This document shows positions 1 through 47,252 of a stretch of 64,000 nt of DNA, in pieces. This stretch comes from Actinoplanes sichuanensis (GTDB lineage Bacteria > Actinomycetota > Actinomycetes > Mycobacteriales > Micromonosporaceae): positions 3,348,001 through 3,412,000 of the forward strand of contig NZ_AP028461.1 of the NCBI RefSeq assembly GCF_033097365.1, written 5' to 3'. The notes beneath the pieces were generated by a model that worked only from the letters and a program-made list of their open reading frames with translations, did no database searches and was not told the DNA's origin. Numbering within the stretch: the stretch's first letter is position 1; the number at the start of each line of letters is the position of its first letter. The translations under genes were made by a program, and so were the position numbers.

Positions 1-1314
1 GTCCAGGTGCTCGCCGACACGCACGGCACGGTCTGGGTGCTGGGCGACCGGGACTGCTCGATCCAGCGCCGCCACCAGAAGGTGGTCGAGGAGGCGCCCG
101 CGCCGAACCTGTCGGACCAGACCCGGGCCGTCCTGCACGATTCGGCCCGGGCCGCCGCGCACGCGGTCGGATATCGCGGCGCCGGCACCGTGGAGTTCCT
201 GGTCGACTCCGAGCGGGTGTACTTCCTCGAGATGAACACCAGGCTCCAGGTCGAACACCCGGTCACCGAATGCGTCACCGGACTGGATCTGGTCGCGCTC
301 CAGATCGCCGTCGCCGAGGGCAGACCCCTGCCCGGCGAGGCCCCCGGCATCGCCGGGCACGCGATCGAGGTACGGCTCTACGCCGAGGATCCGGCCGACG
401 GATTCGCTCCGCAGACCGGTACCGTCCGCACGTTCGACTTCCCGTCCGGGGTCCGGGTCGACTCCGCGGTCGAGGCCGGCAGCGAGGTCGGTGTCCACTA
501 CGACGCCATGCTGGCCAAGGTCATCGTCCACGCCGCCGACCGGGCCGCCGCGATCCGGATCCTCGGCGACAGCCTGCGCCGGGGCCGGGTGCACGGCGTC
601 GTCACCAACCTCGACCTGCTCCGGGCCGTGATCGACGACGACGACTTCGCCGCCGGGCGGATCCACACCACCCTGCTCGACCGACGTCTCGACCGGTGGA
701 CGAGCGGTCCCGAGGAACGGACGGTGGCCAAGGCCGTGCTCGCCGCCGCGATCGGCCAGGCCGGTCAGTCCGCCGCGTCGGCGCCGGTGCTCAACCGGAT
801 CCCGGCCGCCTGGCGCAACGCGAGCGACCAGCCCCGGCGGCGCGTCTACCGGCGCGGGCCGCGGCAGCACACGGTCACCTACTCGTCGGTCGGCCGCCGG
901 CTGGTGTCGGACTTCGTCGACGGCGTCCAGGTCGTCGACGTGCGGGGTGACCTGGTGGTGCTGAGCGACGGCCCGCTGCGGGAGACCTACCGGGTCACCG
1001 TCGCGCACGGGTCGGTCGACGTGGACGGCCCGCACGGCTCGTTCGGGTTCGAGCCGGTGCCCACGTTCGTCGACCCCGCCGAGTCGGTCGCGCAGGGGTC
1101 GCTGCTGGCGCCGATGCCGGCGACGATCACCACGGTCGCCGTCGAGGTCGGCACGGTGGTCGCCAAGGGCGACCCGATCGTCGTCCTGGAAGCCATGAAG
1201 ATGCAGCACACGGTCGCCGCCCCCACGGACGGAACCGTCACCGAACTCACCGCGCGGGTGGGCCGGCAGGTAGTCGCGGGCGCCGTGCTCGCCGTCGTCA
1301 AGGAGGAGCAGTGA
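1..1314 (+). CDS. Biotin-dependent acyl-CoA carboxylase alpha subunit (5' truncated by window edge)
   Basis: This is the C-terminal part of the subunit that carboxylates biotin with ATP and bicarbonate and carries it to an acyl-CoA carboxyltransferase. The biotin-carboxylase signature EMNTRLQVEHPVTE is near residue 78 of the visible part. The biotin-carrier domain at the extreme C-terminus has the biotinylation motif EAMKMQ, the lysine being modified. The frame is open at base 1, so the true start lies upstream. The last bases overlap the next start (GTGA). An acyl-CoA dehydrogenase and an enoyl-CoA hydratase follow, which points to a catabolic enzyme of the methylcrotonyl-, geranyl- or propionyl-CoA carboxylase type rather than to fatty-acid synthesis. 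The exact substrate cannot be read from this part. Confidence 0.93.
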   Translation, partial: VQVLADTHGTVWVLGDRDCSIQRRHQKVVEEAPAPNLSDQTRAVLHDSARAAAHAVGYRGAGTVEFLVDSERVYFLEMNTRLQVEHPVTECVTGLDLVALQIAVAEGRPLPGEAPGIAGHAIEVRLYAEDPADGFAPQTGTVRTFDFPSGVRVDSAVEAGSEVGVHYDAMLAKVIVHAADRAAAIRILGDSLRRGRVHGVVTNLDLLRAVIDDDDFAAGRIHTTLLDRRLDRWTSGPEERTVAKAVLAAAIGQAGQSAASAPVLNRIPAAWRNASDQPRRRVYRRGPRQHTVTYSSVGRRLVSDFVDGVQVVDVRGDLVVLSDGPLRETYRVTVAHGSVDVDGPHGSFGFEPVPTFVDPAESVAQGSLLAPMPATITTVAVEVGTVVAKGDPIVVLEAMKMQHTVAAPTDGTVTELTARVGRQVVAGAVLAVVKEEQ

Positions 1315-2471
1315 CCAACTTCGTCGAGTCCGACGAGCGCCGCGAGCTGCGTCAAGCCGTCTACCAGCTGGGCAGCAGGTACGGCGAGTCGTACTTCTAC
1401 GATGCCGCCGCCCGGGGCGCCAAGACCACCGAGCTGTGGGCGGACGCGGCCAAGGCGGGCTACCTGGGCGTCTCGATCCCGGAGGAGTACGGCGGTGGCG
1501 GCGGCGACATCGGCGACCTGGCCGCCGTCGTGGAGGAACTGGCCACCGCCGGCTGCCCGCTGCTGCTGCTCGTGGTGTCGCCGGCCATCGTCGGCACGAT
1601 CATCGCCAAGTCCGGCACCGACGAGCAGAGACAGCGCTGGCTGCCCGGCCTGGCCAGAGGTGAGGCCCGCTACGCGTTCGGCATCACCGAACCCGACGCC
1701 GGCTCCAACTCCCACCAGATCGTCACCCGCGCCCGCCGCGACGGCGACGACTGGCTGCTGACCGGCCGCAAGACCTACATCAGCGGCATCGACGAGGCGA
1801 GTCACGTCCTGGTCGTGGCCCGGCTGGAGGACGCGCGCACCGGCAAGTTGAAACCCGCGCTGTTCATGGTGCCGACCGACGCGCCCGGCTTCGTGCACCA
1901 GCCGATCGAGACCGGCCTGGTCTCCCCGGAGAAGCAGTTCAGCCTCTTCTTCGACGACGTCCGGCTGCCGTCCGACGCGCTCGTCGGCCGCGAGGACGCC
2001 GGGCTCGACCAGCTGTTCGCCGGTCTCAACCCGGAACGGATCATGGCGGCGTCGCAGGCCACCGGCACCGCGCGGTGGGCGCTGCGCAAGGCCGTCGACT
2101 ACGCGAAGCAACGCGAGGTCTGGGGTGCCCCGATCGGCACACACCAGGCGATCGCCCATCCGCTGGCCCAGATCCACGTCGAAGTCGAGGCGGCCCGGCT
2201 GCTGACCCAGAAGGCCGCGGCCCTCGACGCCGCGGGTGACCTGCTCGCGGCCGGGGAGGCGGCCAACATGGCCAAGTACGCCGCCGGTGAGGTCGCGTGC
2301 AAGGCCGTCGACCAGGCGATCCAGACCCACGGCGGCAACGGGCTGGCCGTCGAGTACGGACTCGTGCAGGCCCTGGCCAACGTACGGCTGTCGCGGATCG
2401 CCCCGGTCAGCCGCGAGATGGCGCTCAACTTCATCGCCCAGTTCTCCCTCAAACTGCCCCGTTCGTACTGA
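1311..2471 (+). CDS. Acyl-CoA dehydrogenase
   Basis: This is a 386-residue FAD-dependent acyl-CoA dehydrogenase, which introduces the alpha-beta double bond into an acyl-CoA. The family pattern FGITEPDAGSNS lies near residue 122, and QTHGGNG near residue 342 belongs to the FAD/dimer region. The C-terminus (RLSRIAPVSREMAL, ending LPRSY) departs from the usual EGTSE-type end. It resembles a subgroup often encoded beside acyl-CoA carboxylases. The GTG start overlaps the carboxylase stop by 4 nt, so the two are probably translationally coupled. Substrate is not determined; branched-chain or terpenoid acyl-CoA is plausible from context. Confidence 0.92.
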   Translation: MTNFVESDERRELRQAVYQLGSRYGESYFYDAAARGAKTTELWADAAKAGYLGVSIPEEYGGGGGDIGDLAAVVEELATAGCPLLLLVVSPAIVGTIIAKSGTDEQRQRWLPGLARGEARYAFGITEPDAGSNSHQIVTRARRDGDDWLLTGRKTYISGIDEASHVLVVARLEDARTGKLKPALFMVPTDAPGFVHQPIETGLVSPEKQFSLFFDDVRLPSDALVGREDAGLDQLFAGLNPERIMAASQATGTARWALRKAVDYAKQREVWGAPIGTHQAIAHPLAQIHVEVEAARLLTQKAAALDAAGDLLAAGEAANMAKYAAGEVACKAVDQAIQTHGGNGLAVEYGLVQALANVRLSRIAPVSREMALNFIAQFSLKLPRSY

Positions 2472-2481
2472 GAGGGTCCCG

Positions 2482-3231
2482 TTGTCCGTCCTCCTGGATA
2501 CCGCCGGTGGCGTCGCCACGATCACGCTGGACAGCCCGCACAACCGCAACGCGCTGAGCCGGCAGCTGATGACCGAGCTCAGCGCCCACCTGGCGGCGGC
2601 GGGGCGGGACCCCGCAGTCCGCGCCGTGCTGCTGCGCTCCAGCGGCCGGGTGTTCTGCTCCGGCGCCGACCTCGGCGAGGCACGGCAGGCGATGACCAGC
2701 GAAGCGCCGCGCGCGCTCGTCGCCCTCCAGCGGCAGATCGCCACACTGCCCCGACCGGTCGTCGTCGAGCTGGCCGGCCCGGTCCGCGCCGGCGGGCTCG
2801 GCCTGGTCGGCGCGGCCGACGTGGTGATCGCGGCCGCCTCGGTGACGTTCGCCCTCACCGAGGTCCGGCTCGGGCTCGCCCCGTCGGCGATCTCGCTGAG
2901 CCTGCTGGAGAAGTTGACGCCCCGGGCGGCCGCCGACGTGTTCCTGTCCGGGCGGACCTTCGACGCCGCCGAGGCCGCCGCGATCGGCCTGGTCACCCGC
3001 GCGGTGCCGGACGATGAACTGCCCGCCGCGGTCGCCGCGACCCTCGCCGAGATGGTCCAGGGCAGCCGGCAGGGCCTGGCCGAGACCAAGCGGCTGCTCA
3101 CCGCCGCCCTGGTCGACCGGATCGACCGGGACGGCGACGCGGCCGCCGAACGGTCCGCCGAGCTGTTCGCCACGCCCGAGGCGCAGCGGGCCATGCAGGC
3201 GTTCCTGACCCGCGCAAAGCCCCCCGGATAG
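2482..3231 (+). CDS. Enoyl-CoA hydratase/isomerase family protein
   Basis: This is a 249-residue crotonase-fold protein that probably hydrates the enoyl-CoA made by the preceding dehydrogenase. The start is the TTG at 2482, preceded by GAGAGGG; it gives the standard N-terminus (MSVLLDTAGGVATITLD). Visible motifs are the oxyanion-hole region FCSGADLGEA and the second catalytic glutamate region TEVRLGLAPS. The position of the first catalytic glutamate reads GPVRAGGLGLVG, so that residue appears absent and the exact reaction is uncertain. It sits 10 nt after the dehydrogenase and is the last gene of this operon. Confidence 0.88.
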   Translation: MSVLLDTAGGVATITLDSPHNRNALSRQLMTELSAHLAAAGRDPAVRAVLLRSSGRVFCSGADLGEARQAMTSEAPRALVALQRQIATLPRPVVVELAGPVRAGGLGLVGAADVVIAAASVTFALTEVRLGLAPSAISLSLLEKLTPRAAADVFLSGRTFDAAEAAAIGLVTRAVPDDELPAAVAATLAEMVQGSRQGLAETKRLLTAALVDRIDRDGDAAAERSAELFATPEAQRAMQAFLTRAKPPG

Positions 3232-3283: not shown

Positions 3284-3323
3284 GACATCGACCGCCGTCC
3301 GCTCCGGACTGGCGGTCGATGTC
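3284..3323 (+). terminator. Hairpin terminator after the acyl-CoA operon
   Basis: A perfect 13-bp stem (GACATCGACCGCC with GGCGGTCGATGTC) encloses a 14-nt loop that can itself pair. It lies 52 nt after the hydratase stop. There is no T-tract, as is common for actinobacterial terminators. Confidence 0.7.
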
Positions 3324-3450
3324 TACCGTGGACGCCGGTCGAGGCCTTACATCCAAACGATTTCCAACCCCTTTCCATCGCATGGTCACGGGTGCCCGTA
3401 CGAGACTGAGGTCCTGGGGATGGAAGCGGCACGAAAGGTCGGTGGGGCGA

Positions 3451-4800
3451 ATGGCAGAGACGACGGCGGATGTGTTGCGGACCGCCGCCGGACCGGATCT
3501 CTTCCGACTGAACGCGTTTCGGGTCACCGGCCTGCCGACGGTCGCCGACCATCGGGCGGTCCGGCAGCGCCGACAGCAGGTGGTCGCGGCGATGAGCATG
3601 GGCGCCGACGTCGATCGGATCCCGTCCGACGTGGACGCCGACGACGTCCGGGCGGCGTTCGACAGGCTGCTCGGGGATCCCCGGCACCGGCTGGTGGACG
3701 AGATCTTCTGGCTGTGGGACGTGCCGGGCGCCGACTGCGGCTGCCCGGCCTCCCTGCACAGCGAGCACGACAAGGCGGCCATCGCCCACGGCATGGCCCT
3801 CGACCAGGAGTTCAGCAAGCTGGACCCGCCCGGCGCCGACCGCGCCGACCTGGACCGGCTCTGGTCCGAGGCGGCCCGGCTGTGGGACGGCGTTCTGCGG
3901 CGCAACGCCACCTGGGACCACATGCGGCACCGGGCCGGACGGCTCGGCGACCGGCGGCTCGACGACACGGTCGTCGGCGAACTGCGCGACGGACTGCCCG
4001 CCGCGTTGCTGCGGCCGCTGGTCACCCTGGCCGTCGCGTCGGACAATCCGGAGCCGCTGGCCCGCCTGCTGCACGGCTGGACCGGGCGGGCCGACCTGGC
4101 CGGCGACATGCTGGCCGAGGCGGCCGGGCCGCTCTACGAGACGATCGACACCGGCGTCCGGCAGACACGGGAGCTGCTGGAGGCCGGCGAACTCGACGAG
4201 GCGATCGAGAACACCCGGGGGCTGCCGGTCACCCTGCTGCGGCTGCGGGCACTGCTGCCGCCGAACCGGTTCCGCCGTACGTCCAACGCCTGCGAGCTGG
4301 TCGCGATCGCCTACAACAACTGCGCCAACCGGGTCTTCGAGGAGTGCGGCCCGCTCGACGAGAGATCCGACGAGCTGCTCAACGACGCCGAGGCGCTGGC
4401 GCTCAACCCGCAGACCAGGGCGACCATCCGGGAGAACCGGGAGGCGTTCCGGGAGAACGCGACCGGGCTGGCCGACCTGCTCGACCGGATCACCTACCTG
4501 GCCCGGTCCGGTCAGCACGCGGCGGCCGGCAACCTGGCGGCGCACATGCGGGTCCAACTGGCCGGTCTGCCCGGCGCGGTGGCCGAGATCGACCGGGTCA
4601 CCTCGCAACTGAGAGCGTCCGGCACCCGGGTCACCGCCGGCGCGAACAGCGGCGGCAGCGACGTGCCGTGGGGCGGGATCATCACCATCGGCGCGCTGCT
4701 GCTCGGTGTCTGCTTCGGACTGGCCGACTGCGACAACGACAGCAACTCGGCGCCGCCGATGCCTGCGGTGCGGGTGGAGGCCGTGTGGCCGGCGCCGTAG
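3451..4800 (+). CDS. J-like helical protein of the kinase-Hsp70 operon, C-terminal membrane segment
   Basis: This 449-residue protein has no firmly recognised family. The N-terminus (NAFRVTGLPTVADHRAVRQRRQQ) followed by a D-x-x-R-x-x-x-DEIFWLWD pattern resembles the degenerate J-like helical module of DnaJ-related proteins, but no HPD motif is present. A long helical, probably repeat-type middle follows. Near residue 410 is one hydrophobic segment (GGIITIGALLLGVCFGLADC), which suggests membrane attachment by the C-terminus. The ATG at 3451 is chosen because it follows a purine-rich GGTGGGG and begins the conserved part. The end overlaps the FHA gene by 16 nt. A role as Hsp70 client adaptor is inference from sequence shape and position. 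Confidence 0.6.
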   Translation: MAETTADVLRTAAGPDLFRLNAFRVTGLPTVADHRAVRQRRQQVVAAMSMGADVDRIPSDVDADDVRAAFDRLLGDPRHRLVDEIFWLWDVPGADCGCPASLHSEHDKAAIAHGMALDQEFSKLDPPGADRADLDRLWSEAARLWDGVLRRNATWDHMRHRAGRLGDRRLDDTVVGELRDGLPAALLRPLVTLAVASDNPEPLARLLHGWTGRADLAGDMLAEAAGPLYETIDTGVRQTRELLEAGELDEAIENTRGLPVTLLRLRALLPPNRFRRTSNACELVAIAYNNCANRVFEECGPLDERSDELLNDAEALALNPQTRATIRENREAFRENATGLADLLDRITYLARSGQHAAAGNLAAHMRVQLAGLPGAVAEIDRVTSQLRASGTRVTAGANSGGSDVPWGGIITIGALLLGVCFGLADCDNDSNSAPPMPAVRVEAVWPAP

Positions 4801-5537
4801 CGCTGCGGATCACGTCGCCGGACGGCGTGACCCGCGGCATCGAGCTGGACGGCGACTCGGTGACCATCGGCCGCCGCGCCCCCGAGCAGTCGCCCGACGT
4901 GGCGCTCAGCCCCGACCCGCAGCGCTGGGTGGGCCGCCTGCACTGTTCGCTCGACCTGGTGGAGGGGATGTGGATGGTGACCGACAACGCCAGCGTCAAC
5001 GGCACCCTGCTGCGCTCCCGGGACACCACCGAACGGCTGCTCGGCCGGCGACGCATCCAGCACGGTGACGCCATCCTGATCCTCGGCGACATGACCCCGG
5101 AGGGCGAGCCGCTCTACTGGCAGCTGCTGTTCCTCGACCCGCACACCACCCAGCAGGCACCGGTCGGCGCGCTGCTGCCGGCACCCCGGTCGGTGCCGAC
5201 CCTGCGCTACGACTGGGTGTCGGCGCGTGCCTACCGGATCCTCAACGGGGTCGAGACGCCGGTCAGTGGGCTCCGACCGCAGGGGCATCAGCTGCTGCGT
5301 TACATGGTCGGCCGTAGCGCCGACGGCGCCGCGGTGGCCTGTGACCACGCGGAGCTGATCACCGCCCTGTGGGGCGCCCGGGAGGAGTGGGCGTCGCATC
5401 GGGCGTACACCCGGGTCGACCTGGCCGGGGTGGTCCGGGCCGTGCGCCGCAGCATCGAACCCGACCCGTCCGCGCCGGTGATCCTGGAGACCGTCAAGGG
5501 CATCGGCTACCGCCTCAACGTGAGTGGTGCCTCATGA
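4785..5537 (+). CDS. FHA domain protein with C-terminal OmpR-type winged helix
   Basis: This 250-residue protein has an N-terminal FHA phosphothreonine-binding domain, about residues 5-100. Its motifs include VTIGRRA, a serine/histidine region GRLHCSL, and NASVNGTLL. The C-terminus, about residues 145-247, is a winged-helix domain ending in ETVKGIGYRLN, the wing signature of OmpR/PhoB-type effector domains. There is no receiver domain. The likely input is therefore a phosphothreonine written by the kinase encoded next. The GTG at 4785 lies inside the preceding gene, and the stop overlaps the kinase start as ATGA. Whether it binds DNA or only partner proteins is open. Confidence 0.85.
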   Translation: MAGAVALRITSPDGVTRGIELDGDSVTIGRRAPEQSPDVALSPDPQRWVGRLHCSLDLVEGMWMVTDNASVNGTLLRSRDTTERLLGRRRIQHGDAILILGDMTPEGEPLYWQLLFLDPHTTQQAPVGALLPAPRSVPTLRYDWVSARAYRILNGVETPVSGLRPQGHQLLRYMVGRSADGAAVACDHAELITALWGAREEWASHRAYTRVDLAGVVRAVRRSIEPDPSAPVILETVKGIGYRLNVSGAS

Positions 5538-6601
5538 CCCTGCTGTCCAGCGGTGACCGCGTCACCGACACGCTCGTCATCGACCGGCTGCTCGGCGAGG
5601 GCGCGTACGCCGAGGTGCACCGGGTCCGGCACGAATATCTCGGCTGGCAGGCGATGAAACTGTTCAAACAGGTCGCCTCGTTGGAGAAGACCCGCGAGAT
5701 GCTCGGCGAGGCGCAACTGCTGTCGACGCTCGGGCACCCCAACATCGTGCGGCTGTTCGACGCCAACATCGTCGAGACGGCGGCCGGCCTGCGCGGCTTC
5801 TTCACCATGGAGTACGTGGCCGGTGGCAGCCTGGAACGGCTGTCCCGGTCGTACCACTCCCAGGTCCCGGTCGACCTGGTCGTCGAGATCCTCGAGCAGA
5901 TCGCCGAGGGCCTGGCCGTGGCGCACGCGCAGATCCCGCCGATCGTGCACCGCGACCTGAGCCTGGCCAACATCCTGATCGGCTACGACGGCACCGGCAT
6001 GCGGGTCCGGGTCAGCGACTTCGGACTGGCCAAGCGGGCCGATCCGTTCACCCACCTGGCCAGCGCGCAGGGCACCTACGCGTTCATGGCGCCGGAGGTG
6101 CTCAAACATCAGGGCTACTCGTGCGCCAGTGATGTCTGGTCGGTCGGGACGATCGCGTTCCTGCTGCTCACCAACCACATTCCGTACCACGACGGCGGGC
6201 AGTTCTCGTCGTTCTCGATGGTCCGGTTCCAGCGTCCGCTGCTGCCGCCCAGCGCGTACAACCCGGATGTGGATCCCGCCCTCGACGAGATCCTGCTGGC
6301 CGCCCTCGCGGTGGACCCGAAACAGCGACCACCCACCGGGCGGGCGCTGGCCGACGCACTACGGGCACGCCGGGCCGCGCTGTCGGTGCCGGTGCGGGCG
6401 GTGGACGTACCACCGAAATCCACCGAGAAGCCGGGCGCGCGCGCTCAGGCCCTCGCCGACGAGGCCTTCGCGCTGGCGCGCCGGCCCGGCGCGCTGGAGC
6501 GCGCCGCCGACCTCTTGGAGGAGGCCGTGAACCTGTCACCGCGATTGCGGGACCGACATCTGCACACGCTCACGCTCTGGCGCCGAGGGGTGATCCTGTG
6601 A
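5534..6601 (+). CDS. Soluble Ser/Thr protein kinase with altered catalytic loop
   Basis: This 355-residue Hanks-type kinase has a glycine loop (GEGAYAEVHRV, residues 21-31), ATP lysine K42 (AMKLF), HRD 139-141, catalytic-loop Asn146, DFG 162-164 and an APE-type motif MAPEVL. The lysine normally two residues after HRD (HRDLKPxN) is serine here (HRDLSLAN). No membrane segment is visible, unlike PknB. The C-terminal 60 residues look like a TPR-type helical hairpin. It lies between the FHA reader and the Hsp70 genes with 4-nt overlaps on both sides. It probably phosphorylates partners in this operon; activity with the altered loop is untested. Confidence 0.9.
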   Translation: MTLLSSGDRVTDTLVIDRLLGEGAYAEVHRVRHEYLGWQAMKLFKQVASLEKTREMLGEAQLLSTLGHPNIVRLFDANIVETAAGLRGFFTMEYVAGGSLERLSRSYHSQVPVDLVVEILEQIAEGLAVAHAQIPPIVHRDLSLANILIGYDGTGMRVRVSDFGLAKRADPFTHLASAQGTYAFMAPEVLKHQGYSCASDVWSVGTIAFLLLTNHIPYHDGGQFSSFSMVRFQRPLLPPSAYNPDVDPALDEILLAALAVDPKQRPPTGRALADALRARRAALSVPVRAVDVPPKSTEKPGARAQALADEAFALARRPGALERAADLLEEAVNLSPRLRDRHLHTLTLWRRGVIL

Positions 6602-7113
6602 TCCGTGACCGGCTCGACCGGCTCCGCACCGAGTGGCGGCAGCGGCGGCACCACCGGGCGTTCCGTATCCCGCCGCCGACCTGGCCGGAGACCAGGCACG
6701 ACCGGCTGGCCACGCTGATCGCCGAACTGGACGCCGCCGCGGCCGAACCCGAGACCGACAACAGAGCGCTGGCCACCGCCGCCACCAATCTGTGGCGGGC
6801 CCGGCGGCGGCTGGCCCAGCAGACCGGCGGGGACAGCGCGCAGGCCCGGCAGGCCGGCCGCTACCTGCGGATGTGCCAGGAGGCGCTGGCCGACGCGGGC
6901 CTGGTGGTCCGCGACCACGACGGGGAGACGTTCGACTCCGGGCGCTCGCTGGAGGCGCTGGTCTTCAACGACGACCCGGACGTGCTCACCGAAACCGTGA
7001 CGGAGACCGTACGGCCCTCCGTCTTCCTGCGCGAGGAGCGCATCCAGATGGGACAGGTCATCGTCGGATGCCCCGTCAAGACTGACTCGACCCCGGGGGT
7101 TGGCAATGCGTGA
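6598..7113 (+). CDS. GrpE-like small cochaperone candidate
   Basis: This 171-residue protein has a basic, helical N-terminal two thirds. Its C-terminal module includes DHDGETFDSG, a stretch ending ETVRPSVFLR, and IQMGQVIVGCP. The RPSV...GQVIVG ending is like the beta-domain of GrpE (R-P-x-V...A-x-V-x-V), and the gene is directly upstream of an Hsp70 gene. Nucleotide exchange for that Hsp70 is therefore the best guess. It is not a canonical GrpE: the long dimerising helix is short. The GTG start follows GAGGGG and overlaps the kinase stop. Its stop overlaps the Hsp70 start by 8 nt. Confidence 0.6.
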   Translation: MIRDRLDRLRTEWRQRRHHRAFRIPPPTWPETRHDRLATLIAELDAAAAEPETDNRALATAATNLWRARRRLAQQTGGDSAQARQAGRYLRMCQEALADAGLVVRDHDGETFDSGRSLEALVFNDDPDVLTETVTETVRPSVFLREERIQMGQVIVGCPVKTDSTPGVGNA

Positions 7114-9568
7114 CACGATCGACTTCGGCATCGACCTGGGCACCACCAACAGCGCCATCGCGGTCGTCGAGGACGGCGTGCCGGTGGTCGTCAAGAGCAA
7201 CGACGGCTGGGACATCACCCCGTCGGCGGTGTGGATCCCCAAGCCCGGCGTGGTCCACGTCGGCCGGGCCGCCCGCGACCGGGCCGACCGTGACCCGGCC
7301 AACGCGGCCGGCGAGTTCAAACTGGAGATGGGTCTGGCCGACGCGACCCGGACGTTCGTCGACGGTCAGGTCACCATGGGCCCGGTCCAGCTGTCGGCGG
7401 AGGTGCTCAAGTCGCTGCGCGCCGACGCCGCCCACCACACCGGCGAGGCACCGGACGCCGCGGTGATCACCGTGCCGGCCGCGTTCGCGCTCAACCAGAA
7501 CAAGGCGACCACCGAGGCGGCGTCGTTGGCCGGGTTCTCGGTGGCCTGCCCGCTCGTGCAGGAGCCGACCGCCGCCGCGTTCGCGTACGGCTTCCAGAAG
7601 GCCGACGAGGACGCCTACTGGATGGTGTTCGACTTCGGTGGCGGCACCTTCGACGCGGCGGTGGTCAGCAAGCGCGACGGTGACCTGCGGGTGCTCAACC
7701 ACGCCGGTGACCCGTACCTGGGCGGCAAGCTGATCGACTGGGCGGTGGTCGAGCGGCTGCTGGCCCCGGCACTGATCAACGCGCTCGGCGTCGGCGAGTT
7801 CCGGCGCGACAACCCGCAGTGGCGCGACGCGTTCGCCAAGCTCAAGTCGGCCGCCGAGGAAGCCAAGATCATGCTGTCGCGGCGGCAGACCGCGGACGTG
7901 CTGGTCGACATCACGCTGCCCGGTGGCCGTACCGAGACGTTCGAGCACACGCTGACCCGCGACGGCGTCGACCGGGTCGCCGAGCCGTTCTACGTCCGCG
8001 CGATCAACCTGTGCCGGGGCGCGCTCGCCGAGGGTGGCCTCGACGTCGACGACATCGACAAGCTGCTCCTGGTCGGCGGTGTGACGCTCAGCCCCGGCCT
8101 ACGGGAGCGCCTCGCCGATCCGGGGCACGGGCTGGGCATCGCGCTCGACTACAGCCTCGACCCGACCACCGTGGTGGCCCGGGGAGCGGCGATCTTCGCG
8201 AGCACGCTGCGCCGGCCGTCGACCGGCACACACCAGCCGGCGGTGGGGGAGTTCGCGGTCGAGTTGGCCTATGAGCCGACCACCACCGTCAACACGCCCA
8301 CGGTGGCCGGGCGGCTGGTGTCCACCGGCGACGTCGACTGGTCCGGTTACCGGGTGACGATCAGCAACGCCGACTACCGTACGCCCGCCATCACCCCGAA
8401 CGCGCGGGGTGCGTTCTCCACCGAGGTGTACGTCGACGACCTGCAGGCCGCCCGGTTCACCATCGAGCTGACCTCGGCGTCGGGCGAGCCGCAGCGGCTC
8501 ACCCCGGACGGGCTGACGATCACCCACCGGGCCGTTGAGTTCGGTGGTGTGCGGCTGGCCCACTCGCTCGGCATCCAGCTGGCCGACCAGGCCTTCGCGC
8601 CGCTGGTCCGCAAGGGTGCCACCCTGCCGACCCGGGAGCGGGAGGTGTTCCGCACGTCGACGCCGCTGAACCGGTCGGACGCCGACGCGGTCATCCGCAT
8701 CCCGGTGGTGCAGGGTGAGCGTCCGCGCGGCGACCGCAACCGGCAGGTCGGTGTGCTGGAGATCCGGCCCAAGGACGTCCGCATCGATCTGCCGGCCGGC
8801 AGTGAGGTCGAGGTGACCTTCGAGGTGGACACGTCCAGCCTGGTCACCGTGGTCGCCGACGTGCCGCTGATCCAGACCCAGTTCGAGGCCGAGATCGCCC
8901 TCGACGACGTGCGCACCCCGGACCCGGTGGCGTTGACCACCATGCTGGACGACGCCGAGCGGCGGATGGCGCACCTGCGTGGGGCGGTCGCCTCCGGTGA
9001 CTCCGAGGACGCTCGTGACCGGCTCGCCGCCCTGGACCGGGAGGGCACCATGACCGGCGCCCGCGAGCAGGTGCAGGCGTCCGGGTTCGACGCGGGCGCC
9101 GCCGCCACCGCCGAGGACCGGCTGCGCAACGTGCAGGCCGAACTCGACATCATCGAGGACGCGGTCGGGCTGCCCGACCTGATCCAGCAGCTGGAGGAGG
9201 CGCTGTCCGCGGCCGACGAGATGGCCGCCGACGACGCCGACCGGCGTGAGGTCGGCGAGCTGCGGCGGCGGGCCCGGACCGCGATCGAGGCCCGGGACAG
9301 GTCGGCGATCCAGGCGCAGCTCGAACGGGTGCACGACTTCCTCATGGAGGTCGAGCGCCGGTCGCCCGACTGGCCGGTCAAGGTGTTCTTCATGCTCTGT
9401 GTCGAGCACGAGAAGCTCGGCATCTCGGCCCAGGCCGACGTGCTGATCGCGCAGGGCCGGCAGGCGATCGCCGGGCAGGACGCGCGCGCTCTGGACGCGG
9501 TCAACCAGCGGCTGGTTCGGCTGCTGCCGGTCGAGGTGGCCGGCAAGATCGGTGGCCTGCTGCGATGA
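7106..9568 (+). CDS. Divergent Hsp70 (DnaK-like) protein with long C-terminal helical region
   Basis: This 820-residue protein has a complete Hsp70 ATPase domain: the phosphate-1 motif GIDLGTTNS at residue 8, EPTAAAFAYGF, the phosphate-2 motif VFDFGGGTFD, and the adenosine motif LLVGGVTLSPG. It is longer than DnaK (about 610-640). The part after about residue 380 has little resemblance to the standard peptide-binding domain. It continues into charged helices that lack the DnaK EEVD/EEKK-type tail. ATG 7106 is preferred over TTG 7100 because GGGGGT lies at the right distance. It is probably a dedicated chaperone for proteins controlled by this operon, not the housekeeping DnaK. Confidence 0.9.
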   Translation: MRDTIDFGIDLGTTNSAIAVVEDGVPVVVKSNDGWDITPSAVWIPKPGVVHVGRAARDRADRDPANAAGEFKLEMGLADATRTFVDGQVTMGPVQLSAEVLKSLRADAAHHTGEAPDAAVITVPAAFALNQNKATTEAASLAGFSVACPLVQEPTAAAFAYGFQKADEDAYWMVFDFGGGTFDAAVVSKRDGDLRVLNHAGDPYLGGKLIDWAVVERLLAPALINALGVGEFRRDNPQWRDAFAKLKSAAEEAKIMLSRRQTADVLVDITLPGGRTETFEHTLTRDGVDRVAEPFYVRAINLCRGALAEGGLDVDDIDKLLLVGGVTLSPGLRERLADPGHGLGIALDYSLDPTTVVARGAAIFASTLRRPSTGTHQPAVGEFAVELAYEPTTTVNTPTVAGRLVSTGDVDWSGYRVTISNADYRTPAITPNARGAFSTEVYVDDLQAARFTIELTSASGEPQRLTPDGLTITHRAVEFGGVRLAHSLGIQLADQAFAPLVRKGATLPTREREVFRTSTPLNRSDADAVIRIPVVQGERPRGDRNRQVGVLEIRPKDVRIDLPAGSEVEVTFEVDTSSLVTVVADVPLIQTQFEAEIALDDVRTPDPVALTTMLDDAERRMAHLRGAVASGDSEDARDRLAALDREGTMTGAREQVQASGFDAGAAATAEDRLRNVQAELDIIEDAVGLPDLIQQLEEALSAADEMAADDADRREVGELRRRARTAIEARDRSAIQAQLERVHDFLMEVERRSPDWPVKVFFMLCVEHEKLGISAQADVLIAQGRQAIAGQDARALDAVNQRLVRLLPVEVAGKIGGLLR

Positions 9569-10389
9569 CGACCGCCGGTGTCTCCGAGGAGTTGGCGCTG
9601 GATCGGGCGCGTGCCGCGGCCCGGTCCGGTGACCTCGACGGCGCGCTCGAACTGCTCGGCGGCGACTCGCCGGCGGCGCTCGATCTGCGGGCCCGGGTGC
9701 ACGCGCAGCGTGGCGAGTTCGATGCGGCCGACGCGGCGTGGGCGCGGGTGTTGGCCGCCGATCCGTCGCACGCGGGGGCGGCGGCCGGGCGCCGGGCGAT
9801 CGCCGGGCGCGGCCGTCGCCGGCTGGTGACCGCCGGTGGGGCGGCGCTGGTGGTGCTGGTCCTGGTGTCCGGGGCGGTTCTGCTGGTCGGGCAGCCCGAT
9901 GAGCCGGGGTCCATGTCGGCCCCGGCGACCCCGGTCACGACCGTGCCGTCACCGGCGCCGTCGCCCTCCGTCACGGCTTCGCCCGCCTCCTCCCCGGATC
10001 GGCTCCTGCGCGGGCTGGCCGTCGCCGGGGTCACCGTCCGCGCGCGGGGCGCCGCCACCGAGGTGGTTTTCGACGAGGGCCTCTTCGTACGCGGGGACAC
10101 GCTGCGCACCGGCGCCGGTGCCACGCTCGAGCGGGTCGGGCGGGCCCTGCGCGACGCCGGTGATGTCACGGTCACGGTGGTCGGTCACGCCGTCCCGGTC
10201 ACCGGTGGGCGCACCGCCGGTGGGTCGACCACCGCCCTGGCGCGGGCTCAGGTCGCGGCGGCCCGGCTGGCCCGTGCGAGCGGGCTCCCGTTGACGTCGT
10301 TTCAGCTGGTCAGCGCCGATCAGAAGGACGGTCCGCACGGCTCACCGGAGGGCAATCGCACGGTCACCCTGCTGGTCGCCTCGCGTTAG
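9565..10389 (+). CDS. Membrane-anchored protein with TPR-like N-terminus and OmpA-like C-terminus
   Basis: This is a 274-residue protein. Residues 1-80 form TPR-like helices rich in alanine (LDLRARVHAQRGEFDAADAA). A single membrane span lies near residues 92-112. It is followed by a proline/threonine/serine linker and a C-terminal domain from about residue 145. That domain has the pattern F..G....L..G...LE.....L and VVGHAVPVTGG...ALARAQVAAARL, typical of the OmpA/MotB peptidoglycan-binding fold. The start overlaps the Hsp70 stop (ATGA). The topology would place TPR helices in the cytosol and the OmpA-like domain outside, so it may tether the chaperone to the envelope. This role is inferred. 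Confidence 0.7.
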   Translation: MTTAGVSEELALDRARAAARSGDLDGALELLGGDSPAALDLRARVHAQRGEFDAADAAWARVLAADPSHAGAAAGRRAIAGRGRRRLVTAGGAALVVLVLVSGAVLLVGQPDEPGSMSAPATPVTTVPSPAPSPSVTASPASSPDRLLRGLAVAGVTVRARGAATEVVFDEGLFVRGDTLRTGAGATLERVGRALRDAGDVTVTVVGHAVPVTGGRTAGGSTTALARAQVAAARLARASGLPLTSFQLVSADQKDGPHGSPEGNRTVTLLVASR

Positions 10390-10683: not shown

Positions 10684-12288
10684 TTACAGCCCGGCGTCCA
10701 GTGGCGCGTCGAGCTTCAGATTCGGATGACGGCCGGCCACCGTCCGCATCCGCCAGCGGTGCGCGAACACCGCGAGCAGAGCACCATCGCGGATCCGGGT
10801 CATCACCTCGACCTGCGACTCCCCGCGCAGCATCTCCTTACCCTCGGCGTCGGTGACGGCCGCGATCTCGTACGGCAGGCGGTCCAGATGCACCTTGACC
10901 CCGAACTCGGCCTCCAGGCGGAAACTCGCCACCTCGAACTGCATCGGCCCGACCGCGGCCAGCACCGGCAGGCCGTCCCCACGCAGGTCGGACCGCAGCA
11001 CCTGGACCACACCCTCACCGTCGAGCTGCTCGATGCCCCGACGGAACCGCTTGTAGGCGCCGGTGTCGTCGGTCCGGCAGACCGCGAAATGCTCCGGCGG
11101 GAACGACGGCAGCGCCGGGAACTGGACCGCCTTGTCGGCGTAGAGAGTGTCGCCGATGCCGAGCGCGGTCGCGTTGACCAGGCCCACCACGTCACCGGGG
11201 AACGCCTCGTCGATGGTGTCCCGACCCTGCCCGAAGACCTGCTGCGCGTACTTGGTGGTGAACGGTCGCCCGGTCCCGGCGTGGGTGACGATCATGCCGC
11301 GCTCGAACCGGCCGGAGCAGATCCGCATGAACGCGACCTGGTCGCGGTGCGCCCGGTTCATGTTCGCCTGGATCTTGAAGACGAACCCGGAGAACGGGCT
11401 GTCGACAGGCCGCTCCCCGTCGTCGGCGGTCGGCCGGGCGGTGGCCGGCGGCGCCATCTCGACCAGGATGTTCAGCAGCTGCCGGACACCCAGGTTGGCG
11501 ACCGCGGCGCCGAACAGCACGGGTGTGCTGGTGGCGGCCAGGAACGTCTCCTGATCGTGGTCGGCGCCGGTCATCCCGAGCAGCTCCAGCTCCTCGTTGG
11601 CGGTCACCCACTCGGCGCCGTAGCGCTCCGCGGCCTCGGCGTCGGCCATCTCCTCCTCGATCGCCAGGTCGGCGCCACCGGGGGAACGCTGCATCCGGGT
11701 GAACACCCCGGTCCGCCTGTCGATCACCCCGTGGAAGTGCCCGGCGATCCCGACCGGCCAGGTCAGCGGGGTCGGCTTGAGCCCGATCCGCTGCTCGATC
11801 TCGTCCATCAGCGCGAGCGCCTCGTGACCGGGCCGGTCCCACTTGTTGATGAACGTGATCACCGGGATGCTGCGCTGCCGGCACACCTCGAACAGCTTCA
11901 GCGTCTGCGGCTCCAGGCCCTTGGCCGCGTCGAGCAGCATCACCGCGCTGTCGACGGCGGTCAGTACCCGGTACGTGTCCTCGGAGAAGTCGGCGTGGCC
12001 GGGTGTGTCGAGCAGGTTGATGACCGTATCGCCGTAGGAGAACTGCAACGCCGCCGACGTGACCGAGATGCCACGCTGCTGCTCCATCGCCATCCAGTCG
12101 GAGACGACACCCTTACGATCGCCCTTGCCGTGCACCGCGCCGGCCTGGCCGATCACACGCGCGTGCAGGGCGAGGGCCTCGGTCATCGTCGACTTGCCGG
12201 CGTCCGGGTGGGAGATCACCGCGAACGTACGCCGTCGCGCCGCCTGGGCGGCAACCCCCGCCGCCGATGTCAGCACGTTTTGACTCAC
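10684..12288 (-). CDS. prfC: Peptide chain release factor 3
   Basis: This is a 534-residue translational GTPase that recycles RF1/RF2 from the ribosome after termination. The G1 motif is SHPDAGKST, G3 is DTPGHADF and G4 is NKWD; C-terminal parts match RF3 (FKIQANMN, LFGAAVAN, VLRSDLRGDGLP). The GTG at 12288 is used because it follows GAGGGGTGTG and gives a normal N-terminus. The upstream extension to 12333 is not conserved-looking. It converges on the small lysine-rich gene. Confidence 0.95.
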   Translation of the reverse strand: MSQNVLTSAAGVAAQAARRRTFAVISHPDAGKSTMTEALALHARVIGQAGAVHGKGDRKGVVSDWMAMEQQRGISVTSAALQFSYGDTVINLLDTPGHADFSEDTYRVLTAVDSAVMLLDAAKGLEPQTLKLFEVCRQRSIPVITFINKWDRPGHEALALMDEIEQRIGLKPTPLTWPVGIAGHFHGVIDRRTGVFTRMQRSPGGADLAIEEEMADAEAAERYGAEWVTANEELELLGMTGADHDQETFLAATSTPVLFGAAVANLGVRQLLNILVEMAPPATARPTADDGERPVDSPFSGFVFKIQANMNRAHRDQVAFMRICSGRFERGMIVTHAGTGRPFTTKYAQQVFGQGRDTIDEAFPGDVVGLVNATALGIGDTLYADKAVQFPALPSFPPEHFAVCRTDDTGAYKRFRRGIEQLDGEGVVQVLRSDLRGDGLPVLAAVGPMQFEVASFRLEAEFGVKVHLDRLPYEIAAVTDAEGKEMLRGESQVEVMTRIRDGALLAVFAHRWRMRTVAGRHPNLKLDAPLDAGL

Positions 12289-12347
12289 CGATCCACACCC
12301 CTCACAAAACGGTGGCAGCCAACCGGCCGCCACCCTGCAACCTTAAA

Positions 12348-12821
12348 TCAGGTACGACCGTCGCGTTCCTGTGCCTGTCGCAGCGAGCGTTCGTACGGCA
12401 CCCAGTCGGCCAGCCGGACCGGAAATCCCTCACTCTTCAGCCGTTTCACGACGGCCGGGTCGTCGTCGACGATGACCGCGATCTCCCCGTCCCGGGCGAG
12501 TCGCCGCAGTCGGCTGAGCTTGTAGTCGCGGGCCGGCCGCCGATCGTCCTCGGGCCGCATCAGCAGCCGCCCGGCGGGCAGCCCGTGCTTGGCGAACCAT
12601 TTCTCGGTGACCGGCCGCAGCCACTCCGGCCGCCCGGTCAGCCAGACCAGGTCGTGATCCCGCGCATACCGGTGCACCAGGTCGGTTCCCTCGGACAGCG
12701 GCGGATCCCGGTCGGCGGCCGAGAAGAACCGCGCCCAGTCCTTCGGTGGCCGGGCCACGTGCCGCAGGCGGTGCCTTACGTCGGCGACCACCCCGTCGAC
12801 GTCGAATACTGCGAAAGGCAT
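12348..12821 (-). CDS. HAD-superfamily phosphatase-like protein
   Basis: This 157-residue protein has HAD motif I as FDVDGVVAD near residue 5, motif II (T in VWLTGRPEW), a lysine in DYKLSRL and motif III VIVDDDP. This is the pattern of the small phosphatase domain of the polynucleotide kinase 3'-phosphatase/LNS2 type. It stands alone with no kinase domain, so the substrate is unknown. It lies 4 nt downstream of the membrane-protein gene and 59 nt upstream of prfC. Confidence 0.8.
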   Translation of the reverse strand: MPFAVFDVDGVVADVRHRLRHVARPPKDWARFFSAADRDPPLSEGTDLVHRYARDHDLVWLTGRPEWLRPVTEKWFAKHGLPAGRLLMRPEDDRRPARDYKLSRLRRLARDGEIAVIVDDDPAVVKRLKSEGFPVRLADWVPYERSLRQAQERDGRT

Positions 12822-12825
12822 GTGA

Positions 12826-13518
12826 TCATTCTGCCGCCTTGATCCGGTCGACGATCTTGCGGCGGTCGCTGTCGTCGTTGCCGAGGTCGGCCGACGCCAC
12901 GGCGGCCAGCAGCGTGGCCCGCTCGGCCTCGGTGAAGCGCCGCAGGTTCGTCTCGGCCAGCACGAGCGCCTGATACTGCTCGTTGGCGGTGACCGGCACG
13001 GTGATCGCCTCGGTCAGTGTCGCCGCGTCGACCAGCCGCGGATCGCCCTGCATCAGCCCGAGCAGCAGCACCCGGACCGGTCCGGACGCCGTCGGGAAGA
13101 GTGCCTTGATCTCGTCCGGGTTGAAGGTCCGCTGACTGGCGAACGCCGCCGCCCGGGTGACGAGGTGATCCTGCACCTGCTTGCGGACGGTGTAGAAGGT
13201 GCCGCCGACCAGCTGGGTGTGGATCACCCCGTACGCCTCGGCGATCTCCGCCAGCTCGGTGTTGTTCAGCAGCCGGGCGGTCTCCGGCGCGCCGTGCCGG
13301 GCCATCTGGCGGACCAGCCGCAGCTCGAACCCGTCGGCGCTGATCATCAGCGCCTCCAGATGCGGCAGTAGGAACGGGCTGATCAGCAGCAGCGCGCCGG
13401 TGATCACCACGACGATCAGGGCCGCGCCCGGATCGGGGGAGAAGAAGGTCTTCCAGCCGGCCATCCCCAGGATGACCACTCCGACGCCCCCGACCGCCCA
13501 CAACCACCATCGATTCAT
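12826..13518 (-). CDS. Membrane protein of unknown function
   Basis: This 230-residue protein has two N-terminal membrane helices (about residues 5-23 and 32-54) and a soluble helical region of about 170 residues. That region reads ELRLVRQMARHG, AYGVIHTQLVGGTFY and TEAERATLLAAV. No family is recognised. It begins just after the sugar permease operon on the same strand (16 nt downstream of malG-like) and could be co-transcribed with it and with the HAD gene. Confidence 0.7.
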   Translation of the reverse strand: MNRWWLWAVGGVGVVILGMAGWKTFFSPDPGAALIVVVITGALLLISPFLLPHLEALMISADGFELRLVRQMARHGAPETARLLNNTELAEIAEAYGVIHTQLVGGTFYTVRKQVQDHLVTRAAAFASQRTFNPDEIKALFPTASGPVRVLLLGLMQGDPRLVDAATLTEAITVPVTANEQYQALVLAETNLRRFTEAERATLLAAVASADLGNDDSDRRKIVDRIKAAE

Positions 13519-13534
13519 GCGCAGAACCTATCGC

Positions 13535-14359
13535 TCACCCCTTGAGGCCGGTATGGGCCAAACCTTCGATGAACTGGCGCTGGGCGATCACGAAGACGAT
13601 CAGCACCGGAATCGCGGTCATCGACGCCGCCGACAGCTGCACGTTCCAGAGTTGTCCCTGGTAGGCGTCGGTGAACTGGGTGAGCGCCTGCGGCAGCGTG
13701 TATTTCGTCCGGGACGAGATGTACACCACAGGTTCCAGATACAGGTTCCAGCTGTGCAGGAACGTGAAGATCGCCACCGCGCCGAGCGCCGGGCGGGCCA
13801 GCGGCAGCGCGATCCGCCGGAAGATGGCGGGCCGGCCCAGGCCGTCGATGCGGGCCGCCTCCTCCAGTTCGCCGGGCAACGTGATGAAGAACTGCCGCAT
13901 GATGAACGTCGCCAGCACGCTCGGCGGTCCCAGCATCGGGACCAGGATCAGCGGCCAGTGGGTGTCGACCAGGCCGAGGCTGTTGAACATCCGGAACAGC
14001 GGGACGATCGTCACCTCGCTCGGGATCAGCAGACCGGTCAGCACCACCAGGAAGAGGACGTTCTGCCCGGGGAACCGGATCCGCGCGAACGCGTAGCCGG
14101 CCGTCGACGCCACCACCAGCGTGCCGAGGGTGACCACGACGGCGATGTACGCGCTGTTGAAGTACTGCTGGGCGAACGGCTGCATGGTGAACACCTGCCG
14201 CCACGGTTCGAGCGTCCAGGTGCCGGGCGCGAAGTCGAAGGCGAAGATGTCCGCGTTCGGCTTGAACGAACTGGTGACCATCCACCACGTGGGGAAGACG
14301 AACGGCACACACAGCACCAGCAGCAGCCCGTACAGCAGAAGCCTGTTCTTAGTTTTCAT
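13535..14359 (-). CDS. ABC sugar transporter permease (MalG type)
   Basis: This is a 274-residue inner-membrane permease with six predicted helices. The MalG-type EAA loop (EEAARIDGLGRPAIFRRIALP) contacts the ATPase. The start overlaps the partner permease by 11 nt. No ATP-binding subunit gene is in the locus. As in many actinobacteria, a shared MsiK-type ATPase elsewhere probably powers the transporter. Confidence 0.93.
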   Translation of the reverse strand: MKTKNRLLLYGLLLVLCVPFVFPTWWMVTSSFKPNADIFAFDFAPGTWTLEPWRQVFTMQPFAQQYFNSAYIAVVVTLGTLVVASTAGYAFARIRFPGQNVLFLVVLTGLLIPSEVTIVPLFRMFNSLGLVDTHWPLILVPMLGPPSVLATFIMRQFFITLPGELEEAARIDGLGRPAIFRRIALPLARPALGAVAIFTFLHSWNLYLEPVVYISSRTKYTLPQALTQFTDAYQGQLWNVQLSAASMTAIPVLIVFVIAQRQFIEGLAHTGLKG

Positions 14360-15236
14360 GGAACACCCATTTTTTGCGCATCTGCCATTGGAGAACGGTC
14401 AGCGCCAGCACGATCAGGAACAGCACCACGGACAGGGTCGAGCCGTAGCCGAAGGCGTGGAACTGGAACGCCTGCTGGTACAGGTAGTAGACGAGCACCG
14501 TGGTGGAGGTGCCCGGACCACCCTGGGTGAGGACGCTGATCTGCGCGAACACCTGCAACGACCCGACCACCGTGATGATCGACGTGAGCAGGATCGTCGG
14601 GCTGATCAGCGGCAGCGTGATCCGGCGGAAGACGGTCCACGGGCCGGCGCCGTCGGTGCGGGCCGCCTCGTACAGCTCCTGCGGGACACCCTGCAACGCG
14701 GCCAGGAACAGCACCATGTTGAGACCGACGTTCTTGAACACCTGCACGACCACGACCGAGGCCATCGCCGTGCCCTCGGACCGCAGCCAGTTCGGGCCGT
14801 CGATGCCGACCAGGTCGAGGAACGCGTTGATCCCGCCGTTGTCCTGCAGCAGGAAACCCCACACGATGGTCCAGGCCAGCAGCGACACCACGACCGGCGA
14901 GAAGAACAGCACCCGGAAGACCGTCGTGCCCCGCAACCGCTGGTTGAGCAGAACGGCCAGGACCAGAGCCAGACCCAGATTGAGTACGACCAAGCCCGCC
15001 GAGAACAGCGCGGTGGCCCGGAGCACCCCGGGGACCTGCGGATCCTCGGCCAGCTTGCGATAGTTCTCGGTCCCGACGAAGTCGAACGTGTCGGCGAGCA
15101 CGTTCCACTCGTGCAGGCTGTACCAGACGACCAGCACGAGGGGAACGAATACGAAGGCGACCGCGCCGATCAGGGCCGGGGTGACGAACAGGTAGCCGGT
15201 CAGCAGGTCGCGGCGCCGGGTGGTCCAGTAGTTCAC
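14349..15236 (-). CDS. ABC sugar transporter permease (MalF type)
   Basis: This is a 295-residue partner permease with six helices and an EAA loop (YEAARTDGAGPWTVFRRITLP). The GTG start at 15236 overlaps the binding-protein stop (GTGA). The much longer open frame upstream is not used. It forms a heterodimer with the MalG-type permease downstream. Confidence 0.93.
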   Translation of the reverse strand: MNYWTTRRRDLLTGYLFVTPALIGAVAFVFVPLVLVVWYSLHEWNVLADTFDFVGTENYRKLAEDPQVPGVLRATALFSAGLVVLNLGLALVLAVLLNQRLRGTTVFRVLFFSPVVVSLLAWTIVWGFLLQDNGGINAFLDLVGIDGPNWLRSEGTAMASVVVVQVFKNVGLNMVLFLAALQGVPQELYEAARTDGAGPWTVFRRITLPLISPTILLTSIITVVGSLQVFAQISVLTQGGPGTSTTVLVYYLYQQAFQFHAFGYGSTLSVVLFLIVLALTVLQWQMRKKWVFHEN

Positions 15237-41802: not shown

Positions 41803-42378
41803 TCATCCGACCGGGGTGGGGGTGGTCTGGCGGGTTCGGGTGGTGGTGTGGAGGGGGTGGAGGGCGGCGAGCATCAGTAGGCCGGTCAGGGGCATGAGGT
41901 TGAGGTCGATGGTGGGCAGCAGGACGGCGATGAGCATGGTGGCGGGGCTCCACCAGGGGAGGTTGCGGGTGCGGGCGGCGAGGGCGGCCATGGCGACGAT
42001 GCCGAGGAAGAACAGTAGGGGGCCGATGTCGTAGATGGCGGCTTGGATGCCGGGGATGTCGGTGAGCTGGTGTTGGAGGCGGCGTAGGGAGTCGCGGTCG
42101 GTGGCGGCGAGGGCCAGGAGCATGTCGGCGGTGAATTGGATGACGGTGGTGGTGAGGCCGAGCAGGGTGATGGCGGTGATGAGGTTGCGGCCGGTGGTGA
42201 TGTGTCGGCGGAGGGTGAGGATGACGGGGATGAAGAGGATCATGCCGGTGAGGCCGAGTAGGTGGGCGATCTGCCAGTCGGCGCCGGGGCCGTATTCGCC
42301 GTCGAGGCGGCCGATGATGCGGGTGATGCCGTAGGCGGTCATGGCGAGGGGTGCGGCCACGAGCGGGAGTCTCGTCAT
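41803..42378 (-). CDS. Six-span membrane protein near the siderophore cluster
   Basis: This is a 191-residue protein with about six membrane helices (LPLVAAPLAMTAYGITRII, LLGLTGMILFIPVILTL, and others). The frame is open to 42612, but the upstream part is low-complexity and hydrophilic. ATG 42378 at MTRLPLVAAP is preferred, although no clear ribosome site is seen. It is downstream of the siderophore genes and shares their composition. A transport role is possible but not shown. Confidence 0.6.
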   Translation of the reverse strand: MTRLPLVAAPLAMTAYGITRIIGRLDGEYGPGADWQIAHLLGLTGMILFIPVILTLRRHITTGRNLITAITLLGLTTTVIQFTADMLLALAATDRDSLRRLQHQLTDIPGIQAAIYDIGPLLFFLGIVAMAALAARTRNLPWWSPATMLIAVLLPTIDLNLMPLTGLLMLAALHPLHTTTRTRQTTPTPVG

Positions 42379-45614: not shown

Positions 45615-45636
45615 CGGGGGTCCTTCCGCGGGTGGC

Positions 45637-47112: not shown

Positions 47113-47252
47113 GGGTCCATTGTTGCGGTCGGGGTGGGTGGTGCGCTGGGGGGAGTGGTGGGGGCGTTTCCTGTCACATCGGGGTGTGGGGTGTGTGTTC
47201 CGCGGCCGCTTCGAATCCGATAAATTCTCGTATTCATCCGAGGGGAGTGGCC

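Follow-up and report, generated by a model that had tools for sequence, protein, structure and literature searches.

A six-gene operon of Actinoplanes sichuanensis is, on balance, best read as a movable and self-contained chaperone operon, in which a membrane Hsp70 machine would be joined to a switch, formed by a kinase and an FHA–winged-helix protein, that acts on the operon's own promoter. It lies in a stretch of 64,000 nucleotides (the window; positions 3,348,001–3,412,000 of the single 12.14-Mb contig NZ_AP028461.1), where its genes, all on the + strand, occupy positions 3451–10389. In order, these encode a J-like protein, an FHA–winged-helix protein, a Ser/Thr protein kinase, a GrpE homologue, a divergent Hsp70 and a TPR/membrane/OmpA-like protein. 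An original prediction, made from the sequence alone, had described an operon joined by overlaps of 4–16 nt; this is confirmed, the chosen starts giving successive overlaps of 16, 4, 4, 8 and 4 nt; those at 3451, 4785, 5534 and 7106 were selected within longer open frames.

Some of the genes are bound to the set more tightly than others; the constant core is the J–GrpE–Hsp70 trio. Because an iterated gene 4 profile drifted onto Hsp70, locus counts were taken from locus reads. Of 41 loci read, 39 contain gene 4 (the window included), and among these an Hsp70 gene adjoins at 37, a J-like gene is in the cluster at 37, a co-oriented kinase gene and gene 6 are each present at 27, and an intact FHA gene is found at 10. 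The loci that lack Hsp70 or J are the decayed remnant L106 and the contig pieces L118 and L119, both from the genome G395. Three loci did not enter the counts: L018, treated as a duplicate of L091; L120, where no member passed the threshold; and L020, which has J only. The full set in the window order (J–FHA–kinase–GrpE–Hsp70–TPR) occurs at nine of the 39 loci (the window, L019 and L087–L093), in three genera of one family. The co-occurrence of all six families that the original prediction looked for therefore holds in part: the families are conserved neighbours and the trio is nearly constant, whereas the intact FHA gene and the complete order are confined to a minority of loci.

The distribution is patchy. 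Counting the A. sichuanensis genome itself throughout, three of 67 genomes within the genus have an Hsp70 of the gene 5 type (E 1e-60), gene 4 (E 1e-8) occurs in at least 21 of 300 genomes of the family and at least 14 of 394 of the class, and the J-like protein was found in five of 60 relatives and at least 13 of 394 class genomes; genome counts from the larger searches may be lower bounds. Across the class samples, of 394 genomes apiece, at least 12 genomes hold both J and gene 4, and in a thirteenth gene 4 genome (G142) the J-like gene was found on reading its locus, L110. The one case considered among public contigs agrees: in Nonomuraea terrae, the J-like, FHA and gene 4 proteins all come from a contig given as 94,987 bp long, presumably the same one. 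The FHA gene was not found in 35 genomes from the family of G113.

The J-like protein is encoded by gene 1 (3451–4800, in a frame open from 3319) and consists of a J-like domain without HPD (residues ∼18–90), a helical solenoid and a C-terminal transmembrane (TM) helix (∼407–427). It has no Pfam match, and a Pfam scan of 34 J-like N-termini returned no DnaJ match. A profile of the domain, compared by hhalign with actinobacterial DnaJ J domains, scored 30.4, the best shuffle reaching 19.2 (199 of 200 shuffles scored); in a rotation control (n = 12), six rotations kept a score of ∼30 and six that cut the domain scored 18–23. When the J-like N-termini were searched as a profile against the PDB, 17 of 43 rows were DnaJ-type chains, the best being 7am2_BS (E 0.0028) and the others weak (E 0.028–2.4), while the top of the same search was taken by designed armadillo repeats through summed weak repeat matches. 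When the complete J-like model (AlphaFold, pLDDT 91) was used for fold searches, the matches listed were mostly helical-repeat proteins, with no J domain among them; these searches tested residues 225–340 and are uninformative either way. Hydropathy in the tail reaches 2.03 at residue 409, and the model places a helix at 407–427, with low local confidence, so that a TM anchor is predicted. This would be a second membrane anchor of the system, absent from the original prediction. The protein has a single match in its own genome, and its closest homologues among the matches listed come from Actinoplanes, at 90% and 87% identity. Many other actinobacteria (proteins P0020–P0058) have a longer J-like protein, in which the hydrophobic segment is followed by a Septum_form (PF13845) region, unlike the window protein, which ends directly beyond the TM helix; in the copy at L088:6082–8226, the Septum_form score is 0.2 bit below the cut-off.

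Gene 4 (6598–7113, start GTG) is a GrpE homologue by fold comparison, with the fold of the nucleotide exchange factor. Pfam gave only DUF6415, at an E value of 0.011 that is under the cut-off, and a PDB search with the gene 4 profile returned no GrpE among the matches listed. The labels ‘J-like’ and ‘GrpE-like’ given in the original prediction are right as descriptions. Gene 5 (7106–9568, start ATG, with TTG at 7100 possible) encodes an Hsp70 (Pfam HSP70, E 1.7e-75, best stretch 9–371) with an ATPase domain at residues 7–369, an insert of ∼100 residues, the beta part of the substrate-binding domain at ∼487–585 and a C-terminal region to residue 820; the stretch at 8213–8575 is without Pfam match. 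The phosphate loops are intact, with GIDLGTTNS in 37 of 37 proteins of this type and GGGTFD in 36 (the remaining one has an ambiguous residue).

The trio resembles DnaK–DnaJ–GrpE in combining an Hsp70 ATPase domain whose phosphate loops are intact, a GrpE-fold partner and a J-related partner, and it differs at the sites where J protein and Hsp70 meet. None of the 34 J-like N-termini has HPD between helices II and III, and the sole HPD present (in L100) sits beyond helix IV. In the gene 5 product, Pro and Gln occupy the positions of DnaK R167 and N170, the first being Pro in all 37 gene 5-type Hsp70s compared (own included), and there is no VLLLD linker; the linker span is 126–135 residues in these proteins as compared with 25 in the organism's own DnaK, an excess of ∼100 residues. 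In the canonical pair, Asp35 of the HPD contacts Arg167 of DnaK and His33 contacts Leu391 of the linker (passages of PMC13012618 and PMC8215388), and the contact with Arg167 is held to be critical for triggering the ATPase (PMC13012618, in the part seen). The joint loss of HPD in the J-like partner and of Arg167 and the linker in the Hsp70 suggests that this pair docks by a mode different from that of DnaJ and DnaK. A conventional DnaK–DnaJ–GrpE set was considered and rejected for the absence of HPD, Arg167 and linker. The original prediction built on the known partnership of Hsp70 with J and GrpE proteins; the Hsp70/J pair here departs from the textbook cycle in lacking HPD, Arg167/Asn170 and the conserved linker.

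The remaining three genes would supply the control and a second membrane component. Gene 2 (4785–5537, start GTG) encodes an FHA domain (Pfam, E 2.7e-8) followed by an OmpR/PhoB-type winged helix (Trans_reg_C, E 9.4e-6, 0.1 bit short of the cut-off; RegX3 match, E 0.008); at least 60 homologues exist, with precomputed FHA and Trans_reg_C domains in many. Among 60 homologues, the Arg of the GR motif is kept in 57 and NGT in 59. Gene 3 (5534–6601, start ATG) encodes a Ser/Thr protein kinase (Pfam Pkinase, E 2.2e-43) with intact catalytic motifs and, by hydropathy, no clear TM helix. OmpR/PhoB-type winged-helix regulators bind direct repeats of 11 bp. Ahead of the operon, three direct repeats with a period of 11 bp (ATCCAAACGAT TTCCAACCCCT TTCCATCGCAT; 3351–3383, + strand) form a candidate operator, with 14 of 15 unit positions matched and none of 300 shuffles equal; the remaining periods from 7 to 16 reach a score of 11 at most. 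By eye, the third repeat occupies the −35 position relative to a possible −10 element, GAGACT (3402–3407, + strand), a weak motif that lies 29 nt downstream of the start of that repeat, a spacing found also in L022 and L087. A generic scan for sigma-70 promoters and terminators found nothing.

The relation of these repeats to the FHA gene was scored by seeking a triple of TTCCA units with period 11 in a 435-base stretch around every cluster start, with 300 shuffles, the cluster starts being those of profile matches rather than annotated start codons. The test covered 40 loci: 10 with an intact FHA gene, one remnant and 29 without FHA (among the latter L118, which has only 57 upstream bases). 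The unit was defined from the window, L091 and L019, which score 14, 14 and 13 of 15; the test set consisted of the remaining seven FHA loci, which score 10–12 of 15, with shuffle p from 0/300 to 0.05. Repeats above shuffles (p ≤ 0.05) were found at all 10 loci with an intact FHA–winged-helix gene and at none of the 29 without (lowest p 0.20). When the three defining loci are set aside, the comparison is seven of seven versus none of 29 (Fisher 1.2e-7, with related loci uncorrected). In a control over periods 7–16, 11 was strictly the best in six of the seven test loci (with a tie in L089) and in none of the 29 others, and TTCCAWC occurs upstream at all seven test loci versus one of the 29 (L100). 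In L022, where FHA is the first gene of the cluster, the repeat site lies ahead of FHA. Since the FHA protein carries an OmpR-type winged helix and the repeats occur only where an intact copy is encoded, the kinase and the FHA protein probably control transcription rather than the chaperone cycle. The kinase would phosphorylate a partner on a threonine that the FHA domain would then read, and the winged helix would bind the 11-bp repeats ahead of the operon, turning expression up or down.

The alternative is that the kinase has the chaperone as its target and phosphorylates the J-like protein, the Hsp70 or the gene 6 product, with the FHA protein docking there as an adaptor and the chaperone cycle being gated. 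We regard this as unlikely. The kinase does accompany J–GrpE–Hsp70 at 27 of the 39 loci, including 17 that lack an intact FHA gene, and its catalytic motifs are retained in all 26 kinases aligned (of the 27 kinase loci only L099 is outside the alignment). However, the FHA partner has a DNA-binding domain and coincides with a DNA site, neither of which an adaptor needs. The original prediction of one machine in which phosphorylation gates a dedicated chaperone accordingly survives in its first half, the dedicated Hsp70/J/GrpE-like trio; in its second, the winged helix and the repeats indicate that the phospho-pair probably gates transcription.

Several observations weigh against transcriptional control by the FHA protein, or against other parts of the reading that we prefer. 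At 17 of the 27 kinase-bearing loci there is no intact FHA gene, so that the kinase must serve another role there. In the FHA motif S-R-x-H, the Ser, a phosphate contact of other FHA domains, is replaced by Gly in 49 of the 60 homologues, and so in gene 2 of the window (nine have Ser), so that phosphothreonine binding by gene 2 is not assured. The repeat units vary, and relative to the window register the best triple is shifted upstream by one unit in L022, L089 and L092; the shuffle p is no lower than 0.05 in L089 and 0.02 in L022, and L106, which is decayed and holds FHA fragments, has no repeats. The association between repeats and FHA is inflated by relatedness, because the nine full loci come from three genera of one family and L022 from another family. 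The pattern TTCCAACNNNNTTCCRT has one perfect match in the genome, the operon site, and five one-mismatch sites elsewhere, as compared with one for a control pattern; one of the five, L165 (G000:C1:8717709–8717725), has three TTCC-like units at 11-bp spacing, the third of which makes a second target in the genome possible. Of the genome's four other Hsp70-like proteins, three also lack Arg167 (by motif match without alignment), and its loss is therefore not specific to this gene set. Second copies of the set were considered and are not supported, because near these four other Hsp70-like loci phmmer gives no match to gene 1, 3, 4 or 6. A wide regulon was also considered and is not supported by these site counts.

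FHA-less loci may use other controls. In L094, whose cluster has every gene except FHA, an upstream co-oriented gene (12161–15166) encodes a SARP-type regulator with BTAD, NB-ARC and TPR, which may replace the FHA regulator there; a homologue occupies the same place in L095 (12597–15845), whose cluster likewise lacks only FHA. Nine FHA-less loci (L098, L108, L109, L111–L114, L116 and L119) have a second, divergent kinase gene (∼520–640 aa) beside the cluster, and TPR repeats were seen in the L112 copy, the one checked. The remnant at L106:7683–8608 retains FHA, gene 4 and gene 6 fragments and has no Hsp70, J or kinase match.

Gene 6 (9565–10389, start ATG) encodes a protein with TPR, one TM helix (∼90–108; hydropathy 2.60), a Pro/Ser linker and an OmpA-like C-terminus, the Pfam matches to TPR_2 and OmpA both being sub-threshold. 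OmpA domains bind their ligand through Asp and Arg. In the group of the window, the Asp after GH is absent, although several relatives read GHSD. The ‘OmpA-like’ label of the original prediction is a weak one (OmpA E 0.013–0.018), and the proposed tie to the cell wall through this last protein is only suggestive.

The operon coincides with a discrete block of similarity. Between window positions 1–30000 and the 19.5-kb locus L091 of Actinoplanes philippinensis, blastn finds a single similar block, at 3308–10378 (+ strand, 88.0% identity), with unlike flanks. The A. philippinensis homologue of window positions 1–3212 (84.5%) is on a different contig, with no other window match within 19.9 kb. 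This one-block similarity, together with the patchy distribution, points to a discrete cassette that would have been transferred between genomes. No transposase came to light, and an empty insertion site was not found, the ECH gene having passed E 1e-60 in one of 17 genomes tried. An imperfect inverted repeat (20 nt, 85%; 3277–3296/3311–3330) spans the left border at 3308. A neighbourhood that arose by chance, or through shared regulation only, with no common machine, we consider highly improbable: the FHA, kinase and TPR/TM genes are often missing from otherwise similar loci, but the six genes overlap, their order is kept over three genera, the similarity block corresponds to the operon, and J and gene 4 co-occur. 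Outside the operon, the convergent neighbour at 10684–12333 (− strand) encodes peptide chain release factor 3 (prfC), and window positions 42001–48000 differ from the remaining window in a strong GC skew (0.34–0.45) and a negative AT skew.

The nearest described systems are GTPase-centred systems with Hsp70, GrpE and DnaJ. As presented in passages of Kaur et al. (2020; PMC7159879), the GAP1-N2 systems share with the operon a dedicated Hsp70 and GrpE, a DnaJ- or TPR-bearing partner, occurrence in actinobacteria and membrane-proximal parts; a separate theme in that source includes a protein kinase. They differ from the operon, which includes an FHA–winged-helix regulator with a candidate operator. 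No model of a TRAFAC-type GTPase matches the six proteins in Pfam at E values up to 1, and FNIII gave no Pfam match in them, although divergent repeats could escape detection. The specialized Hsp70 HscC, with its tail-anchored partners DjlB and DjlC, is similar in having a J partner with a C-terminal membrane anchor (predicted here) and a patchy distribution (PMC8215388, in part). HscC is thought not to use GrpE, unlike the operon, where a GrpE homologue adjoins the Hsp70; DjlB and DjlC have a recognized J domain, which the J-like protein does not, and the HscC–DjlB/DjlC passages of that source mention no kinase or FHA partners. From DnaK–DnaJ–GrpE the operon differs further in that its chaperone is coupled to a kinase and FHA regulator. 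In EmbR/PknH, a Ser/Thr kinase is paired with an FHA protein that has an OmpR-type winged helix, a combination shared by genes 2 and 3; unlike EmbR, the gene 2 product has the FHA domain first, the order being reversed, has no BTAD match in Pfam and has as its predicted target its own chaperone operon.

The likeness to the systems of Kaur et al. raises the question of whether the operon is a conflict or immunity system as grouped by those authors, with the chaperone setting the threshold of an effector. A patchy, movable cassette in multicellular actinobacteria would be consistent with this, as would the Hsp70, GrpE and DnaJ-FNIII or TPR proteins of the GAP1-N2 systems (PMC7159879, in part). 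We think it quite improbable, because Pfam recognizes no GTPase, FNIII or effector domain in the six proteins and, among the neighbours seen in Pfam, genes of metabolism or transport predominate. As for a GTPase in the flanks, the nine full loci (64 flanking genes) gave at least one EF-Tu-type match among the best 25 of 74 Pfam families. PADLOC, run on 64 of 87 flanking genes (23 left out), returned 10 families, each in at most three genes: the mad3, mad8 and AriA matches in L019 and L092 are ABC-ATPase-like proteins (partial matches, with ABC_tran in three members), and PDC-M45B, PDC-M45C, PDC-M19A, mad2 and Csa3 are single matches. Within the operon, only the kinase matched PADLOC, through generic kinase models; the NCBIfam model MAD6 was far short of its cut-off (142 versus 460 bits). 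Anti-phage defence is not supported, there being no system-specific PADLOC match to the operon genes.

We return to the movable chaperone operon with its own transcriptional switch. Genes 1, 4 and 5 would make up a dedicated Hsp70 machine on the inner side of the cell membrane. The C-terminal TM helix would tether the J-like protein there, and the helical solenoid of this protein is probably where clients or partner proteins bind. The Hsp70 would hydrolyse ATP and be reset by the GrpE homologue. The gene 6 product would be a second membrane protein, with its TPR and OmpA-like domains on opposite sides of the TM helix, and probably hands an envelope signal or a client to the machine. In agreement with the original prediction, no description of the full six-gene set was found among the matches listed in the literature searched, a scope that lies outside subscription papers and preprints. 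The set is not categorically new, since relatives are known for every part and Hsp70/GrpE/DnaJ systems centred on a GTPase have been described.

More tentatively, and with somewhat more doubt than belief, we propose that the operon encodes a second bacterial Hsp70 machine, in which an HPD-less, membrane-anchored J-like protein would drive, via an inserted domain, an Hsp70 that has neither the canonical J-docking Arg nor the linker, and whose supply would be set by a Ser/Thr kinase through an FHA–winged-helix regulator on its own promoter. It would then be a natural case where control of Hsp70 may work without HPD and without Arg167. In addition, a bacterial kinase–FHA pair gains a predicted direct DNA target, which would make it a circuit from phosphorylation to transcription.

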